This document shows, piece by piece, positions 13,170-22,549 of a stretch of DNA of 64,000 bases. The DNA comes from Bacteriovoracia bacterium. Its GTDB lineage: Bacteria > Bdellovibrionota > Bacteriovoracia > Bacteriovoracales > Bacteriovoracaceae. The translations under genes and the position numbers were made by a program. Position 1 is the first letter of the stretch; every line of letters begins with the position of its first letter. The notes beneath the pieces are model-generated. The model was not told the DNA's origin, did no database searches, and was given only the letters and a program-made list of their open reading frames with translations. Location: the NCBI GenBank assembly GCA_030431635.1, contig JAUIIL010000004.1, positions 62,001-126,000 on the forward strand. The letters run 5' to 3'.

Positions 13170-13264
13170 TCAATTCTCTCCTGTGATCATCTTTTTTACA
13201 CGTGTTAGTTTACTAGGCGCGTAATATGTGTTCTTAATACCTTATGTCGCTTGAGCAGTGGCAT

Positions 13265-13286
13265 GAGCTTTGCTCTATCAAAGCTC
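13265..13286 (+). promoter_or_regulatory. Leader hairpin before the giant-protein start
   Basis: GAGCTTTG and CAAAGCTC form a perfect 8-bp stem with a 6-base loop. It ends one base before GTGAGG (13287-13292), a good ribosome-binding site for TTG at 13299. The hairpin fits an untranslated leader better than coding sequence. Confidence 0.5.
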
Positions 13287-13298
13287 GTGAGGTTTATA

Positions 13299-16200
13299 TT
13301 GAAAACACGTACTTTTAAGTACTTAGCTCTTCTAGCTCTTGCTCATCTTTTCCTGTTTTTTCAGGTTCAGGACTCCTTTGCCCAAGGGAAGAACGATCCA
13401 AACCTTCCAGAAGTTAATAAAGTAGGTCTGACTCAGGCTTTGGACAAGATTGATGGATTGTTTAAAAAAGTCACTAGCGGGAAGAAAACAATTCTTGGCT
13501 TTATTGAAGTTGATTCGCCCGCGGTCAAAGATTACTTTCGTTCTGAACTACCTAAACTCATTGTTCCGATGGAAAAGGTAAGAAATAAGCTTTATGAGAA
13601 GAGTCGTTTTCGTTTTGAAAAAGAAAGTGAAATCCATAAGGATTTTATCAAAGAAGCTATCTACTACAACAGAATTTATATTCAGTTTGTAAAAACCTAC
13701 ATTCAGGCCATGCACAACGATGGCAATAATACCCAAAACTATATCAAAAGATGGCACTCAATTGAGAGTTTAAGGCCCAAGTTTCATGCCAATAGTTATG
13801 ATGATTTGGCCATGAGGTTTGAAGAGTTTAAAATTATTAATCATTTGAAAGAGAATTATTTTGAAGTGGCCGTTTCAGAGTTTCAAAAATCAATGTTTGA
13901 ATCAGAGGCCTTAAAGAATATAACCACTGTTGGCAAATACGCTCGCTCTGTTCATTTTCATGCTTTGCAATCAACCCTCTTTAATCATGTTGATCTTCAA
14001 AGCTATGTTGACTACGATCTTCCTCCTGAGTTTGCAGAGAATTCATGTGCAGGGGACAGTTTTCTATCTATGCAGACACCTCCAACAGCTCGAGGGAATA
14101 TGCTTGAGCTTCCTTTATATAAAGAAACTCAGAACTATCTTATTTATAATAATTTTTATTTCCCTTACACAAAGATGTTCACCAAGATTGGGCTAGATGC
14201 TGGGATTATGAGTGAAGAGTTTATCTCAAGTTTTATGGACAAGGTTTTTGAAAATAAGAATGTGAGAAAGTTCTTTAAAGAAAAGTTCAAAAAAAATGAA
14301 GAATACAATGAAGGAAAAGAAGAAGCAGAGAGAGTCCCTACTGATAAAGAAGGGTATCAGAAGTATCTAGCAGAAACGTTTTCTACTGGGTATCGCAATA
14401 TTATGATTGAACTGGATCAAGGGAATTCAGTTTTTCAAAAAATTATTAAGCCAGGGGAAGAGCTCTCCTATGAAATTATTAGAGATAGAACTTTTGAACT
14501 TCTCTATAACCAGGCCAATGCTCTTCTCTACGAGCAAATTAGTAACAGAGTTACCTATAGAATCAATGAAGAAGATGATGTTAAGTTAACAGAAGAGCAA
14601 ATCAATAAAAAAGATGAAGAGCATTTTAATAAAGTGTATGTGCCTGTCATGAATGCTTTGAGAGATTATCTCAATGAAAACGAAGCAGCATACAAAGAGC
14701 GCTACACTGAGGCGATGGATAAAGTCGAAGGATTTCGTCATTTAAAAGATAGAAGAAGTTTAGCTGCTTATATGAAGCAGATGAAAATTGATAGAGCTGC
14801 TTTCCTTGCAATGGATGTTCTTCCATCTGCTTATTTAGTGAATTTGATGAATAATGATTATCTCATGCTTGAGAACAAAAGAGAGCCTTTAACGGAAGAG
14901 GCCTATATTAGAAAGCTCTCGACAATTGCAACGCCTAAATTCTTTTATGAGGAAGGTAGCGATGTTAAGGAAACAGAAGGAGATGCTCAAAGCTCTCTTT
15001 TAGAGAGAAGAAAAAAATTAATGCTTCAAAGGGATGCCCTTCCTCCAGCTTTAAGAAATGTTCAAAAAGTTCTTCCAGTCGAGCCGGGAGAGTTGATTTT
15101 ACTAGCAGAGAAAAAAGCAGACCTTCCGCGCTTTATGGACTTAAGAAAAACAATCTCTCACGACCAGAGAGGGATGAAGTTATGGGATTATTTCCAAAAA
15201 AGGATTCGAACTAGAGTCAAAGATTATAAGAAAGAAGTTCTTAAAAAGCATGATCTAGATGACTTTATTCAGTTAGATGAAGAGGCCTATGATGATTATC
15301 AACAGGCCCAAAAAGATCCTTCAAAGGCCACAATGGCCAGTAACGAGAGAGCTTTCTTTGAGACATTAAAGAGAGTTCTCCCTAAAGAACTCAGAATTGA
15401 GCTTCTTAATAAAGCAGCAGTTGAAGAAGGAAAGAGAATATATATTGGTTTTATTCGTCGTTTTACTTGTGAAAACCTCAATGACTCAATTGAAGTAACA
15501 AAGAAGTCGATTCAGCAATTTAAGGGCAAAAAGAAAGAGAAAACCCTTCAAACATGGTTAAAGCGTTACGAAAATCTTTTTACCTTTCATCAATGTGAAA
15601 ATAAAGACCTCATAAAAAAGTATGCAATGAGTGATGAAGAAATCGATGAACTGACAGAAGAGCTTGGCTATGACAAGCCTGAGGATTTAATTGATTCTTT
15701 CATTTATGATCAAAGTGAAGACATTAAAGAGTATGTTAATACAGGAAACAAGTCATTATTAGATCAAAGTCTTAATGACCCTTCTAACTCTCTACTCACA
15801 GAAGCTGGTGCCAGTTTAAACAGACAAAGGAAAAAAGAAGGTAAAAATCCGATTGAAGAAGATAATACTGTCTTTGAGCAAGAGCTTATTGAAGTACTCC
15901 CTGAGAAGAGATTTAGAAAGAGCTGGTGGGAAGAGTTAGGACAGCTTTTAGTCGATGCAGCTCCAATGATTCTTGAAGGAATCACTGATATTTTTCATGA
16001 TGATATTTGGGATTATGAACAAGAATTTGATTCAGGAAACTTTATTTATAAACTCCTAGGAGATACGAAAGGATGGTTTTGGAATTGGGATTGGCGCTTT
16101 GGAAAACTGAAAAAATATGACGAACTTGAATTTCATTTTCAAACTGAAAAACAGCAAATTCACGATATGTATCTAGAGAACGTAGCTCGTCACGTTTTCA

Positions 16201-19200
16201 GAGAGCAAACAGGAAACGAAGGTTTCTTAATGGGAGATGATAAAGCTCTCTTAATTGAAAAGATAGAAAAACAAGATGAAAAAGATAAAGAAGCCTACAA
16301 GCAAGCTCTTAAAGATAAAGGAATAGGGGAAGGAGTAGAAGTCGCTGACTCAAAAGAAGATTTAGTGAAGAAAGAAGAAGAGGAAACAGAAACTGTTTCT
16401 AATCAAGAGATTGATGAAATTTCAGCGTTAATTGATGACGTTCTTGATTTAGATGGGCTTTTGGGGGGAAGTAAGGCCAATGGGGCTTTTGGTTCTAATA
16501 TTGAAGTCGTCTCCTCTGAAGTTGTGCAAGCTGAACTTGAACTTGAAAGACAAGAAAAAGAATTAGCGGCTAAGAAAGATAGCGCCAATACAAAGCCTTT
16601 GGTTTTAAAGCCAGAATTTAGAGAAGATAAAAAAGACTCAACCACAACGATTGATGAAACAATCGCTAAAGCTCAAGAACAGGCCAAAGAAGAAACACAA
16701 AGAGTCGCTGAATTTACGATGCCAGAGACAGCTGCCAGAATGAAAAAAGAGGGGTTTGATGTTGATGGCTCGAAGCTTGAAGAAGAGGCCCCAGAGGAGG
16801 AGAAGAGTCCAGAAGAGAAAGCTAATGAAATGGATGATTATATTGCTTCAAACGATCCTCTTCTTAAAAAACTAGATGAGCAAAGACAAGCAGCTTACCT
16901 TGATATGAAAGGTCTTGGTGAGAGTACGGGGAAACTAGAAACTTTTAACGGTGATGCGAGTCTTTTTGAACAAAAAGATCTTCTAAGGCTTCTTAAAGTA
17001 AGTCATGCTATAGTGAACGGAAAAAACTATATTATTAACCACTACGGATATACTAAGAAAGAGAGCAGAGGAAAATTTCTTAAAAACCTTGGTGAGACTT
17101 TTGATGAAATGCTTAAAGTCTACGGATTAGCTGAAGTTGTTATTCTTGGTGGAAGTGAAGAGGATTTTGATCTGGCTCCAACCATGATGGAGCAATTTAT
17201 GATTGCTTCAAGCCGAGTTGAGCAGGCCAAGAGAGGGGATCCTATTCTTGGAATTGTCGAAGAGCTCCCGGCCCACCCTATTGCTCGCTATGATTATTTT
17301 CAAAAGTTAGTTGATGAGTATTCAAAAAATCCTCATGCATCTGAACCAGAGAGTAATAAAAAGAGTTTTGATGACTACCTTGTCTCTTTTGGAAGAGAAG
17401 GAGAAGAGGATGCTGTCAGTAAGGCCCTTATTTTGAGACTGGCCGAATCCTACGATCCTCACAATAGCTCAAACGATCTCGCTCGGATTAAAGATGAAAT
17501 TAATCACTTCATCTCTCGGGCGGTGACTAATATCTCGGGAAAGATTGCAGATTTTTGTGAAGCAGAACTTGATTATCCTCATGTAAACGATGCTTACGGT
17601 AAAATGTTTCGTTCATCAGGTGGAATTAGACGCTACCTCTTTAGTGCTCAAAATACAGCTATTGATCCAGTTATGCGTAAAACGATTGAAGTTGATTATG
17701 AAGAAGATATGATGATTAAAACAAGAAGCCGGATGGTTAAAAATATTGAGATGCTTGACTATATTGGAATGGCCGTTCTTTTTGTTGGGTTTGCTTTTAT
17801 GGGAGCAGCAGGATGGGCCGCGAGAGGACTTTCAGCAGAAACATTACCCAAGTGGGTTGAGTCTGTTGGAAGTTGGTGGGGAATTGGCTTTGGAAGTGGA
17901 GCTAAGGTTGCTGGAGCCATGGGGTGGCTAAGTAAGTTCAACCTTTTTCTTACTTTTTTCTTTGTGGCCCCTAATACAATGAGAATAATTGATGTTTACT
18001 CATATCCTGCGCAAATTAAATTTCAAAAGAGTTTAATGACTGCGCAAGTTCTTGAGAGCACTTTTGGTGAAGAAAGAGCCGTGATTGGTGATAAAGAAAT
18101 TGAAGAAACTATTAAAGAGTACAATATGAATAAAATCATGGGCCCATTATTCTTGGCCTTTGATGGAGTTTTCATTGGCTACACTGCCAAAATGGCTTAC
18201 CGGCATTTTGGGTTTGCGGCTGCTGATTATATTAGTATGCAAACAGGAGTTGAGTTTACCAATATCTTTGCTTTCTCAAGGTGGAAAGAGTGGAGAAGTA
18301 TACCTAAATACTTTAGGGCCCACTTGGAGAAATTTAAAGAAGTGAGGGCCAAAGCGGCCAAAATCAAATCGATGCAATCATCGAAAAGAATTGCTGAGTC
18401 AAGTTCAATGGATGCGATGAAAACAGCAACACAAGAAGAGCTGGCCTTAATTAAACTCAGAGAATCGACTCCATTAACAAGATTTATGAAGAAAATTTCT
18501 GATGGGATTAGAAAATATAGAAATACTTCTCATGTCTTGGAACAAAATGGAAAGAATGAGAAATCTTGGCTTAAAAACTTAGTTAATGATTATAAAACAA
18601 TTAAGCTCATGAAAACAAAAGAGGGGATGGCAGCTTTAAGATCATACTTAACCGGAATGCCTATACTTGATCAGTCAGAAGTCCTCAGACTGCTTGAAAA
18701 TGACCTTGTAGCTCGGGCTGGTAGGGACTTTAAGCTAAAAAGCCTGGTTGATGCCGCTAACCATCGTCAAGAGTTTCTAGAAGGTATGACTGAAACTATT
18801 ATGGAAACTATTCCAAAGTCAGCCCAGGAAGCCTCCAATAGCTTTAAGGATAAAGTTATCTATAACTCTATTGTGAGAAGAAAGCTTGGAGATAGAATAA
18901 GTCTTTTGATTGATAATCCTCGCATGTCATGGAAGCTACTTATGGAGACTTTTGGAAACTCGAGGGCCTTGATGTATCCACCAACTCTTATTAAGGCCAT
19001 TAAAAGGAGAGCTTGGGATGGTGCTGGGGCTGTTCTGAATCAATTTAAATGGCACTTTCGCTATCTTGATGAGATGAAAGCTGACTTACTTAAAGATTCA
19101 GCCAGAGAATTTAGTAAATTCACAGACCTCATGAATAGCATGGATAATTTCTTTAGAAAAAATCCTCAATATTTAGAAGGGGAGCTTTCAACAGAAGCGA

Positions 19201-20099
19201 TTGAAGAAATTATGAAGCCTCTTGGAGGGAATATTATCAAGATCGGCCAAGAAGGAAAAGTATTTGAAAATGAAATGGGATTTACTCTCGCTCTGTTCAA
19301 ATACGCAGGCAAAGTGCTAGATGAGCAGATAAAAGTTGTCAAAAGAGAGGTCATGGCCGAAATCGATAAGGCCAGGGCCGTTTTACTAGAGAAGAATGTA
19401 CCAATCGAACAAGTTGATGACATTCTTGTGCAGCAGTTTAGAAGAGATGAGATTAATTTATTAAAAGAAAAACTAAGAATTAATAAGATAAAACCTCTAG
19501 AGTTTGATGTGGCCGTTGAAAAGGTGAAAAGAAAGAGCTTTAAAGACCTTTTTGCAGATAAAGCAGAGAAGATGGTTGCGCAGAAAGGGTTTATGAAAAG
19601 TATCCTTCCTGATGTGATAAGTGATGCTGGAGTTGATCATTACAAAGTCTTTCTTAAGACGGTAGAGGATCTAGCAAAGTTTAATTACCCAGGCCTCGGA
19701 GAGTTAAGAAACATCTTTAAGCAGAACCAGAGAATCTTAGATGCGATGGAGCCTCTAGAGCATGAATTTAACCTTGAGTACTACATTAATAATATGAGTA
19801 GTGACTCAGAGTATACTATCATTAATGAATTTATAGCGGTGAGAGAGTCAATGACTAGAATGGTGAATGGACAACTGAGTCCTAAAAGCGTGCTCTCAGT
19901 GAAAAAGTTTGATGAATTCATCTATAGTGATGCGGCCAAGGAAGCCGTCGCTAAAATGGGAGATGATGGCTATATGACAATCCTAAGCTATGACAAAGAA
20001 GTCGATGAAGTCATAAAAAAGATGGCCGATGATGCTCCAGTTGAAGAAATGGTAGAAACTTTCAAAGGATCTGGGGTCTACGTTCCTAAGACAAACTAG
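13299..20099 (+). CDS. Giant exported protein of unknown function (about 2266 residues)
   Basis: I do not recognise a family. A Sec signal peptide (KTRTFKYLALLALAHLF..., cleavage near DSFA-QG) heads a very long, charged, helix-rich protein. An acidic, low-complexity linker lies near residues 1024-1050 (KKEEEETETVSNQE, then IDDVLDLDGLLGG). Three hydrophobic segments fall at about 1488-1510, 1546-1566 and 1613-1640, with more charged helical sequence to the end. Start: TTG at 13299 has GTGAGG 6 bases upstream and yields a compact signal peptide; ATG at 13263 and TTG at 13251 are in-frame alternatives but lack a ribosome site. Composition matches its neighbours, so recent acquisition is not suggested. 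The stop overlaps the convergent beta-propeller gene by 4 bases. An envelope or host-interaction role is only a guess. Confidence 0.88.
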   Translation: MKTRTFKYLALLALAHLFLFFQVQDSFAQGKNDPNLPEVNKVGLTQALDKIDGLFKKVTSGKKTILGFIEVDSPAVKDYFRSELPKLIVPMEKVRNKLYEKSRFRFEKESEIHKDFIKEAIYYNRIYIQFVKTYIQAMHNDGNNTQNYIKRWHSIESLRPKFHANSYDDLAMRFEEFKIINHLKENYFEVAVSEFQKSMFESEALKNITTVGKYARSVHFHALQSTLFNHVDLQSYVDYDLPPEFAENSCAGDSFLSMQTPPTARGNMLELPLYKETQNYLIYNNFYFPYTKMFTKIGLDAGIMSEEFISSFMDKVFENKNVRKFFKEKFKKNEEYNEGKEEAERVPTDKEGYQKYLAETFSTGYRNIMIELDQGNSVFQKIIKPGEELSYEIIRDRTFELLYNQANALLYEQISNRVTYRINEEDDVKLTEEQINKKDEEHFNKVYVPVMNALRDYLNENEAAYKERYTEAMDKVEGFRHLKDRRSLAAYMKQMKIDRAAFLAMDVLPSAYLVNLMNNDYLMLENKREPLTEEAYIRKLSTIATPKFFYEEGSDVKETEGDAQSSLLERRKKLMLQRDALPPALRNVQKVLPVEPGELILLAEKKADLPRFMDLRKTISHDQRGMKLWDYFQKRIRTRVKDYKKEVLKKHDLDDFIQLDEEAYDDYQQAQKDPSKATMASNERAFFETLKRVLPKELRIELLNKAAVEEGKRIYIGFIRRFTCENLNDSIEVTKKSIQQFKGKKKEKTLQTWLKRYENLFTFHQCENKDLIKKYAMSDEEIDELTEELGYDKPEDLIDSFIYDQSEDIKEYVNTGNKSLLDQSLNDPSNSLLTEAGASLNRQRKKEGKNPIEEDNTVFEQELIEVLPEKRFRKSWWEELGQLLVDAAPMILEGITDIFHDDIWDYEQEFDSGNFIYKLLGDTKGWFWNWDWRFGKLKKYDELEFHFQTEKQQIHDMYLENVARHVFREQTGNEGFLMGDDKALLIEKIEKQDEKDKEAYKQALKDKGIGEGVEVADSKEDLVKKEEEETETVSNQEIDEISALIDDVLDLDGLLGGSKANGAFGSNIEVVSSEVVQAELELERQEKELAAKKDSANTKPLVLKPEFREDKKDSTTTIDETIAKAQEQAKEETQRVAEFTMPETAARMKKEGFDVDGSKLEEEAPEEEKSPEEKANEMDDYIASNDPLLKKLDEQRQAAYLDMKGLGESTGKLETFNGDASLFEQKDLLRLLKVSHAIVNGKNYIINHYGYTKKESRGKFLKNLGETFDEMLKVYGLAEVVILGGSEEDFDLAPTMMEQFMIASSRVEQAKRGDPILGIVEELPAHPIARYDYFQKLVDEYSKNPHASEPESNKKSFDDYLVSFGREGEEDAVSKALILRLAESYDPHNSSNDLARIKDEINHFISRAVTNISGKIADFCEAELDYPHVNDAYGKMFRSSGGIRRYLFSAQNTAIDPVMRKTIEVDYEEDMMIKTRSRMVKNIEMLDYIGMAVLFVGFAFMGAAGWAARGLSAETLPKWVESVGSWWGIGFGSGAKVAGAMGWLSKFNLFLTFFFVAPNTMRIIDVYSYPAQIKFQKSLMTAQVLESTFGEERAVIGDKEIEETIKEYNMNKIMGPLFLAFDGVFIGYTAKMAYRHFGFAAADYISMQTGVEFTNIFAFSRWKEWRSIPKYFRAHLEKFKEVRAKAAKIKSMQSSKRIAESSSMDAMKTATQEELALIKLRESTPLTRFMKKISDGIRKYRNTSHVLEQNGKNEKSWLKNLVNDYKTIKLMKTKEGMAALRSYLTGMPILDQSEVLRLLENDLVARAGRDFKLKSLVDAANHRQEFLEGMTETIMETIPKSAQEASNSFKDKVIYNSIVRRKLGDRISLLIDNPRMSWKLLMETFGNSRALMYPPTLIKAIKRRAWDGAGAVLNQFKWHFRYLDEMKADLLKDSAREFSKFTDLMNSMDNFFRKNPQYLEGELSTEAIEEIMKPLGGNIIKIGQEGKVFENEMGFTLALFKYAGKVLDEQIKVVKREVMAEIDKARAVLLEKNVPIEQVDDILVQQFRRDEINLLKEKLRINKIKPLEFDVAVEKVKRKSFKDLFADKAEKMVAQKGFMKSILPDVISDAGVDHYKVFLKTVEDLAKFNYPGLGELRNIFKQNQRILDAMEPLEHEFNLEYYINNMSSDSEYTIINEFIAVRESMTRMVNGQLSPKSVLSVKKFDEFIYSDAAKEAVAKMGDDGYMTILSYDKEVDEVIKKMADDAPVEEMVETFKGSGVYVPKTN

Positions 20100-21544
20100 A
20101 GCTTAAACCACCCCGTATTGCAATGATTGAGCTCTTTATAATTAATACTTCTTCTGACAATCTTGTTCTCCACAACACTATCAAAGCGGATGGCCTGTGA
20201 ATTAGGGTGAACTCTTATGTTTCGAGGAAGTTTGGCGTGAGTTTCAAGCATACTGTAAGGAGAAAAGCTCATTTTGTTTTGAGGAGCGTTTTTATCCACG
20301 GAATAGGCCCAAGTATGGATAACCCCAGACTCAGTGATAAATAAGAATTTAAGCGAAGAAGCCCGGGAACTATCATTAAGCCTTATAAAACGTACATACC
20401 GAATGCCCTCATCAACGGGAATAGTGAGGATAGGCCTAGGATTATCTAAAACCACTCTATTTTCGACTCTTGTCACATCGTATATCTTTATGCGGGCAAA
20501 CCCGTTTTCGTCAGTTTGAATGGGGGCCACTGCCAGTAAAGAGCCATCATCTGAAAGAGAGAGAAAATTGCCAAAAACCCCTTTTAATTCAAGGGTCTCA
20601 TTTTGCTTTTTATCAAAGAGATAAGTGACTTTTTCATCCAGATTGTTTCTTTCTAGGGAAAAAGCAAAGTGTTGAAAGTTATCATCATGGGCAAAAGAGG
20701 AAAAATTATGGATTTTATGGGCCAGTTGCTGAGCTTTATCAGCACTATCAATAATAGGAGTGATTTCTCCCTTCTCTAAATCAACTTCCCACACGGCCAT
20801 TTTTTGAATCCCAAGTGTGGTATCATCAATTGTGCTTTCCTGTTTAAGGCGAATAGGGTTTTTTATCTTATTTTGAAAGCCTATTTCCCTCATAGGCCCT
20901 TGGTAGATTTCAGAAGGGTGAGGGGAGCTCATAGGAGTGACCCCAAAACCAAAAATCTCTCTGAAACTTGAAAAATAAGCTAGGACTTTTCTCCCATCAT
21001 CAGAGACCTGAATTTTTTCAACTCTCTTTATAATATTTTTATGAAACCCTTGATAGTTATGTAAAACAGTGGGTTGGTATTGTTCAGTTTGAGAATCTTT
21101 GAAGTAGAGGACTACATTTCCTTGCTCATCACCCAAATAAAGGCTCGAATAATGTGTTTTTTGTCCATTTTCGCTCTTTATACTTCTCTCATCAATCTCA
21201 ATAGCAGTGTGCTTTCCCATCCCAACAGAAGGTAGCATTCCCACTTTGCGGCTCTTTAAGTCTACAACAAAAGCTCTTCCTTCTTTTGTCCCAACAACGA
21301 GCTTATCATCGCTCAAATTAAACTTAAGAAAAGTCGCCTCGCTCTTTCTTTGATCAACAGTAAAGAGGCGCTTTTTTTGTTTAAGATCCCAAATCAGAAG
21401 CTCCCCTCCATTTCTCCCAACTGTGGCCGCTAATTTTTGAGAAAGAGAGAACTTCACCATTTTAAAAGAAGGAGAACTAAAATCTGGTAAACTAGCTTGG
21501 GAAATAGAAATAAGTAGAAGAGAAAAAAGAGATAATTTGAGCAT
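20096..21544 (-). CDS. Exported WD40-like beta-propeller protein
   Basis: Predicted periplasmic or surface scaffold. The 482-residue product has a signal peptide (MLKLSLFSLLLISISQA) followed by repeated beta-strand units of WD40 style: LAATVGRNGGELLIWDLKQKK, then VVGTKEGRAFVVDLKSRK, VYLGDEQGNVVLY-like and AVWEVDLEKGE segments. About six or seven blades fit the length. ATG at 21544 was chosen over an in-frame codon 33 bases upstream because AAGG lies 7 bases before it and the signal peptide starts there. It converges on the giant gene with a 4-base stop overlap. No catalytic motif seen; protein-protein interaction is the likely role. Confidence 0.75.
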   Translation of the reverse strand: MLKLSLFSLLLISISQASLPDFSSPSFKMVKFSLSQKLAATVGRNGGELLIWDLKQKKRLFTVDQRKSEATFLKFNLSDDKLVVGTKEGRAFVVDLKSRKVGMLPSVGMGKHTAIEIDERSIKSENGQKTHYSSLYLGDEQGNVVLYFKDSQTEQYQPTVLHNYQGFHKNIIKRVEKIQVSDDGRKVLAYFSSFREIFGFGVTPMSSPHPSEIYQGPMREIGFQNKIKNPIRLKQESTIDDTTLGIQKMAVWEVDLEKGEITPIIDSADKAQQLAHKIHNFSSFAHDDNFQHFAFSLERNNLDEKVTYLFDKKQNETLELKGVFGNFLSLSDDGSLLAVAPIQTDENGFARIKIYDVTRVENRVVLDNPRPILTIPVDEGIRYVRFIRLNDSSRASSLKFLFITESGVIHTWAYSVDKNAPQNKMSFSPYSMLETHAKLPRNIRVHPNSQAIRFDSVVENKIVRRSINYKELNHCNTGWFKL

Positions 21545-21575
21545 AACGTACCTTAATAATAACTGTGAGTGAAAC

Positions 21576-21606
21576 AAAAAGAGGCACCATAGGCGCCTCT
21601 TTTTTA
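21576..21606. terminator. Intrinsic terminator (works for the upstream minus-strand gene)
   Basis: GAGGC...GCCTC stem flanked by A-run on one side and T-run on the other (21576-21606). It lies just past the stop of the Ala-rich exported protein and before the beta-propeller gene, both on the minus strand. Confidence 0.75.
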
Positions 21607-21625: not shown

Positions 21626-22549
21626 TTAACCGTTACAAGCACTAAGTGCGAAAGCTTTAGGAAAGTTTACATTTGCACCTTCTGGAAGAGCAAAAATTGT
21701 ACATGATGGCTCAGTTGCTTCAAGTCTATTAGACTTAACGTGCCCATCAAGACCTTTAATACACTTGTAGCTATTTACTCCTTCCATTAGTTCTGCAGTT
21801 GCTTGTTTTGCAGCAAGAGCATCACCATCTTTTACTTTAACCATTCCAGCAACAACACCTTTAATTTGAGAGGCTGCTCTGTCTTCAACAGTCGCAAGAG
21901 ACCCTTTTAAAGCAATAAAGTTGTATGCCGTTCTCGCAGCAAGTCTTACGTTACTCTCAATCCCTGTAGAGAAGTTTCCACAAGTAGAAGAGAAGATTGG
22001 AGTACCTGTCTTTTTCGCTGTAAGTGCACTCATTTTTTGTAGAGCAAGAGTATCAGCTTCAGTAAAAACTTTCTCCATTGACTCTGTCGACTTAGCAATT
22101 GTCTCTACCGCTTTGTCAGAAAGACCACTCATAATAAACTCAAGCTCAACAGCAGCATCTTTAATTGCAGCTTTGTCCATTTCAAAAGCCTTATACATTC
22201 CACGTGGACTGTAGTTAGGATCTCTCATTGCTATCTTTTCGATATTGATAGCGTACTCTTTTGCTTCTTCTGCTTGAGCCAAGCTTTTTACAAACGCTTG
22301 AGTATCAAGTTTCGCTGTTCTTACTTGCTCAACAGCACGGGCCAAAATAGCAACTTTAGCTAAACTTCTTCCGGCTTCATCAAGTCCATACTTTGCAACT
22401 CTTGCTGCAATGTCGTCGCTAAAGCTCTTTACAACAGATGTTGAAGCTCCAGCTTCTTCAAGTGCTCTAATTGCAACTTTTGCAACGGGTTCTATAGAGG
22501 CAAATAGACTAGTCACCGCAAAGACTAATACTAAACATAACTTTGACAT
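21626..22549 (-). CDS. Exported alanine-rich helical protein, function unknown
   Basis: The 307-residue product has a clear Sec signal peptide (MSKLCLVLVFAVTSLFA) and a mature part rich in Ala, Glu and Lys that looks almost wholly alpha-helical. Only three or four Cys remain in the mature part (STCGNFSTG, YKCIKG, EPSCTIF and the C-terminal ACNG), enough for two periplasmic disulfides. AAGGAGAT stands 5 bases before the ATG, a strong ribosome site, and a terminator follows, so it is a single-gene unit that may be well expressed. No family recognised. Codon use is richer in A-ending triplets with few GGCC contexts compared with its neighbours, a weak hint of high expression. Confidence 0.8.
   Translation of the reverse strand: MSKLCLVLVFAVTSLFASIEPVAKVAIRALEEAGASTSVVKSFSDDIAARVAKYGLDEAGRSLAKVAILARAVEQVRTAKLDTQAFVKSLAQAEEAKEYAINIEKIAMRDPNYSPRGMYKAFEMDKAAIKDAAVELEFIMSGLSDKAVETIAKSTESMEKVFTEADTLALQKMSALTAKKTGTPIFSSTCGNFSTGIESNVRLAARTAYNFIALKGSLATVEDRAASQIKGVVAGMVKVKDGDALAAKQATAELMEGVNSYKCIKGLDGHVKSNRLEATEPSCTIFALPEGANVNFPKAFALSACNG

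Follow-up and report, generated by a model that had tools for sequence, protein, structure and literature searches.

Our analysis of the window, a 64,000-nucleotide stretch of genomic DNA from a Bacteriovoracia bacterium, indicated that its giant gene encodes a member of an undescribed family of exported, probably inner-membrane-anchored envelope proteins of about 1,550 residues. Members were detected in roughly half of the searched Bacteriovoracaceae genomes, among them that of the cultured predator Halobacteriovorax marinus SJ, and also in a few related families. Once linked to a companion protein, a probable topology and a locus of a cultured strain, an unreadable giant gene becomes a testable two-protein envelope system. 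The result points to a large envelope component of the Bacteriovoracaceae predator line that is missing from Bdellovibrio.

The giant gene and its product

The giant ORF is a real gene. Its frame runs without a break for 2,266 codons on the plus strand (13299-20099), from a TTG start to a stop codon at 20097-20099. A stop-free run of this kind has a chance probability of about 10^-74 at this composition, and the GC contents of the three codon positions (0.49/0.30/0.33) are gene-like. The TTG at 13299 is a plausible start because GAGG is found at 13289-13292, 6 nt upstream. Two overlapping 11-bp stem-loops, which are possibly regulatory, lie directly 5′ of this ribosome-binding site at 13241-13289 (+). 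The features of the locus are as follows.

13262-13289 (+): 11-bp stem-loop before the GAGG (consensus scan only)
13289-13292 (+): GAGG ribosome-binding site, 6 nt before TTG 13299 and directly behind the 11-bp stem-loop
13299-20099 (+): giant exported protein gene (open frame, ribosome-binding site, codon-position GC, homologues)
13299-13382 (+): putative signal peptide, residues 1-28, MKTRTFKYLALLALAHLFLFFQVQDSFA followed by Q (sequence and hydropathy; predicted cleavage site)
13386-14648 (+): conserved domain of the N-terminal part (profile A5), presumably periplasmic (the ORFs matched by A5 are those found with the core profile)
15699-16898 (+): acidic linker, residues about 801-1200, net charge -45 (composition)
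17304-18788 (+): core family domain (matches of profiles A6, A12 and A13)
17763-17819 (+): hydrophobic segment 1, residues 1489-1507, mean hydropathy 1.86
17913-17969 (+): hydrophobic segment 2, residues 1539-1557, mean hydropathy 1.29
18135-18191 (+): hydrophobic segment 3, residues 1613-1631, mean hydropathy 1.18
18192-20096 (+): C-terminal part, net basic right after the hydrophobic segments, presumed cytoplasmic (composition; family charge pattern)
20096-21577 (-): WD40-like (beta-propeller) exported gene, overlapping the giant stop codon by 4 bp
21626-22549 (-): companion, an Ala-rich exported protein of 307 residues; cysteines at 190, 263, 283 and 305 (alignment A4, adjacency statistics, second pair)

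The first-pass annotation had described a 2,266-residue protein with a signal peptide, an acidic linker and three hydrophobic segments two-thirds along, and all of these were found again in the sequence. Its description of the WD40-like and Ala-rich exported genes beside the giant was likewise confirmed. The hydrophobic segment of the putative signal peptide covers residues 5-23, and S-F-A precedes the Q at its end. The signature of the core domain is GKxxxFCxA...R...(hydrophobic)...PxQ[LIM]xxQxS. Hydrophobic segments 2 and 3 are weak in this protein.

No match to the window giant was found in Pfam even at E = 1, in NCBIfam or PHROGs at E 0.1, or at a significant level in the PDB, which agrees with the earlier statement that it belongs to no recognisable family. 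PADLOC gave a single weak match (Cas6d, E 0.016), and nothing similar was present in the phages and plasmids searched. The AlphaFold model of the giant core, built with only 7 sequences, was of low confidence (pLDDT 54.5) and that of the companion of medium confidence (pLDDT 66); Foldseek found no match with either. The literature searched held no study of the giant gene or its expression. A large cytoplasmic enzyme, the contrary case raised in the first-pass annotation, found no support, as the signal peptide is present and no enzyme domain matched. The giant belongs to a family that has no entry in the libraries searched.

Distribution of the giant family

A search with the window protein alone matched 4 of 59 genomes, and the relatives came from three other genera. 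Profiles were built stepwise because this single-protein search gave only three diverged relatives outside the genus. All three share the architecture of the window giant, and two of them also share its genomic setting, with topA on one side and an aldehyde dehydrogenase gene on the other (gene names were assigned by reading the sequences). Alignment A1, with four sequences, found matches in 15 of the 129 family genomes and also showed that the genome of the window encodes another giant. Beside this second giant is an 858-aa ORF with similarity to a PrkA-type AAA domain (L038 12083-14659).

Among the 369 genomes of the phylum, core profile A6 matched 35 and core profile A12 (33 rows) matched 85. 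Core profile A13 (57 rows) matched 69 of the 129 Bacteriovoracaceae genomes, or 48 of the 73 good-quality ones. The family is patchy, with about half of the Bacteriovoracaceae genomes lacking a detectable member. The core domain was also found in a few other Bdellovibrionota families, and nearly all core-profile matches lie in ORFs of about 1,450-1,950 aa. A5 covers a different part of the protein from the core profile, though it draws on the same family members; A5 and A6, used separately, matched mostly the same ORFs of the phylum. The window protein itself has the export signal, the A13 core, a hydrophobic cluster about two-thirds along and an adjacent small exported companion. The named records within the family are Bacteriovoracaceae, Halobacteriovoraceae and 'Oligoflexia' metagenome assemblies. 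One genome of another Bdellovibrionota family (G323) carries three tandem giants (L125 1164-14440).

Halobacteriovorax marinus SJ (genome G002; PMC5760749) has a giant at L203 7315-12084 (-), and the locus spans about 2,859,328-2,865,083 of NC_016620. Similarity between the H. marinus clade and the window type is detectable in the core alone; a profile comparison of the clade with the window-type alignment alone gave 96% probability (E 2.4e-9). In the same H. marinus cluster, an exported nuclease-like protein and a 1,325-aa exported protein adjoin the giant (L203 361-2055 and 2182-6159). The former matches the MnuA family at E 4e-13, below the curated cut-off, and the latter matches nothing in Pfam or NCBIfam and has 16 cysteine columns kept in its aligned relatives.

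In the 66 Bdellovibrionaceae genomes searched the giant is all but missing, with just two marginal matches, both in ORFs of about 530 residues. This set is presumably the Bdellovibrionaceae, as it seems to include P. exovorus (G041), and it also seems to include several complete B. bacteriovorus genomes. These results give no support to the prey-contact apparatus that the first-pass annotation had suggested. The giant and its companion might be the core of an undescribed trans-envelope machine of Bacteriovoracaceae predators, absent from Bdellovibrio, that breaches or docks on prey membranes, a proposal we regard as improbable.

The companion protein

In Bacteriovoracaceae, the Ala-rich exported neighbour of the window giant aligns (A4) with exported or lipoprotein neighbours of other giants. 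We also used a criterion that does not depend on homology, namely an exported protein of 270-345 aa within two ORFs of the giant and with a Cys in its last 12 residues. Such a neighbour was present at 35 of the 58 giant loci and at 4 of the 67 control positions (Fisher p about 2e-11, a value that overstates independence, as the loci are related). The link between the Ala-rich neighbour and the giant that had been suspected earlier was thus borne out, with this neighbour occupying a conserved companion position. The window's genome has a second giant-companion pair (G000:C16).

Three cysteines are invariant in the H. marinus-clade companion (A14): two belong to a CAxC-like motif and the third to a C-terminal CFF. 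This companion was found in 53 genomes, 51 of which also have the giant, and the two genes lie within about 12 kb of each other in all 46 cases where they share a contig. Eighteen giant genomes do not have the A14 type, and these include genomes with the window-type companion. The orientation of the pair varies by clade (tandem upstream or convergent downstream), yet giant and companion stay together. Many companions carry a lipobox. Companion types of different clades, when compared with each other, gave hhalign values of 17% or less, too low to establish homology by sequence. For one companion profile, the top non-training matches were enriched in companions of L114, L120, L005, L038 and L118, which is a hint of homology.

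Other neighbours of the giant

The first-pass annotation had placed both exported neighbours in one apparatus with the giant. Co-occurrence held for the companion position and failed for the beta-propeller, for which 58 other genomes yielded a single weak relative, and this one does not share a contig with the giant of its genome. The beta-propeller was therefore rejected as a third member of the unit and is a local insertion beside the giant, not a partner. A second, diverged WD40-like copy is present in the window's genome (G000:C2:436120-437598).

Genome G035 has no giant between topA and the aldehyde dehydrogenase gene; the place is taken by a 2,000-aa exported protein (L171 7149-13151). 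Though large, exported and in the same position in a related genome, it was rejected as a diverged giant; its sequence reads as alpha-2-macroglobulin-like, is unrelated to the giant family and matches neither A5 nor A6.

Architecture and probable topology

The 74 giants compared have a median length of 1,546 aa and a median of three hydrophobic segments, the first of which is at 65% of the length. In most of them the strongest segment has a hydropathy above 2, with values of up to 3.0. The part before the segments is net negative on average, and the part after them is net positive in 72 of the 74. Some giants have a lipobox in place of the plain signal peptide (L045, L046, L047 and L131). According to the positive-inside rule, the flanks of membrane segments that carry net positive charge face the cytoplasm. 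The charge change across the hydrophobic cluster would therefore put the N-terminal part outside and the C-terminal part inside, which suggests a topology with the N-terminus in the periplasm and the C-terminus in the cytoplasm.

Interpretation of the giant-companion pair

Starting from the export signal, family membership, conserved architecture and conserved pairing, all of which were read from sequences, we infer a topology, a physical contact with the companion and a scaffold role. The signal peptide would export the giant via Sec, and its mostly helical N-terminal part of about 800-1,450 residues would be placed in the periplasm. The cluster of usually three hydrophobic segments some 65% along would anchor it in the inner membrane, and the basic C-terminal part, mostly of 330-760 residues, would be placed in the cytoplasm. 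The companion, a lipoprotein in many lineages, would work with the giant from the periplasm or the outer membrane, and the two would form an envelope-spanning scaffold or tether. We favour this reading tentatively. A two-membrane arrangement of this kind fits because some giants and many companions carry lipoboxes. As the first-pass annotation had supposed, the giant is probably an envelope component. The likeliest kind of protein, one that spans the envelope from an inner-membrane anchor and has an exported partner, would be one already known, while the family itself matches nothing described.

The hydrophobic segments could instead be buried, in which case the giant would be a structural protein of the periplasm or bound to the outer membrane, such as a scaffold for shape, septation or filaments. 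The long charged helical regions, the weakness of segments 2 and 3 in the window giant and the lipoprotein nature of some giants are all compatible with this. However, a strongest segment above 2 in most giants and the conserved charge change across the cluster argue against burial, and we think this reading rather unlikely. Also unlikely, in our view, although it is the main competing mechanism, is that the giant is a pore former or translocon component that acts against prey or rivals by a membrane-inserting hairpin, with the companion as its chaperone or immunity protein. It is true that, when the hydrophobic core was compared with profiles, the nearest matches fell repeatedly into one class, each of them non-significant; we take them as leads and not as signs of membership. 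In the PDB, these were MakA, VCA0883 and NheA at E 0.015, and further YaxA, AhlB, Hbl-L1 and NheA at E 0.1-0.9. In NCBIfam, NheB matched 7 of the 57 core members (best 0.004), HblD matched four and MakA one, and the SseC translocator of Pfam matched one member at 9e-5. The companions evolve fast yet stay adjacent, like immunity or chaperone proteins, and the H. marinus-clade cluster also holds the MnuA-like exported nuclease. But given the models and members tried, no toxin-family match was significant or near its curated cut-off, and the window giant itself gave no toxin-type match in NCBIfam. The recurrence is not independent because the matched members are homologous, and the PDB matches span mainly the hydrophobic hairpin. 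An integral protein is in keeping with the charge asymmetry, and segments as hydrophobic as those found here would normally stop a Sec substrate in the inner membrane. The giants do resemble the ClyA/NheA/MakA alpha-pore-forming proteins in having a hydrophobic Gly/Ala-rich hairpin flanked by helical sequence, over which the weak profile similarity recurs (best E 0.015 in the PDB and 0.004 in NCBIfam, not significant). The ClyA-like fold is a long helical bundle with a head hairpin; the model of the giant core, which was of low confidence, gave no Foldseek match. The matched chains of these toxins are about 300-400 aa long, whereas the giants span 1,000-2,300 aa and carry, in addition, a conserved domain at the N-terminal side and a C-terminal part that is basic.

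If the pair assisted a known secretion or motility machine, it would recall the logic of TssM (IcmF) and TssJ in the T6SS, where an exported lipoprotein is the partner of a large protein of the inner membrane that has about three membrane segments and an extensive periplasmic part. In TssM, the membrane segments are near the N-terminus and the periplasmic part is C-terminal. This order is reversed in the giant, which has an N-terminal signal peptide and its hydrophobic segments at about 65% of the length. The Pfam and NCBIfam matches listed for the giants of the window and of H. marinus, and for the 57 core segments, included no IcmF/TssM domain. Neither TssJ nor any other secretion-system domain was found in giant or companion, and no T6SS genes were recognised alongside the giant. 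The genes that flank the window giant read as housekeeping (topA, pyrD and aldehyde dehydrogenase). An accessory role therefore seems quite improbable, and the envelope-spanning scaffold or tether is the reading we retain.

Second companion copies

Many genomes of the H. marinus clade contain a second copy of the companion gene, which lies directly upstream of another large lipoprotein gene (L241 8486-12498, and likewise L242-L246 and L248). Since this copy stands beside a different large lipoprotein, the companion may be a general partner of large exported proteins. The lipoprotein is about 1,000 aa in most cases and 454 aa in L247. That of H. marinus SJ has a sub-threshold match to Amidoligase_2, and it is possibly an exported amide-bond-forming enzyme.
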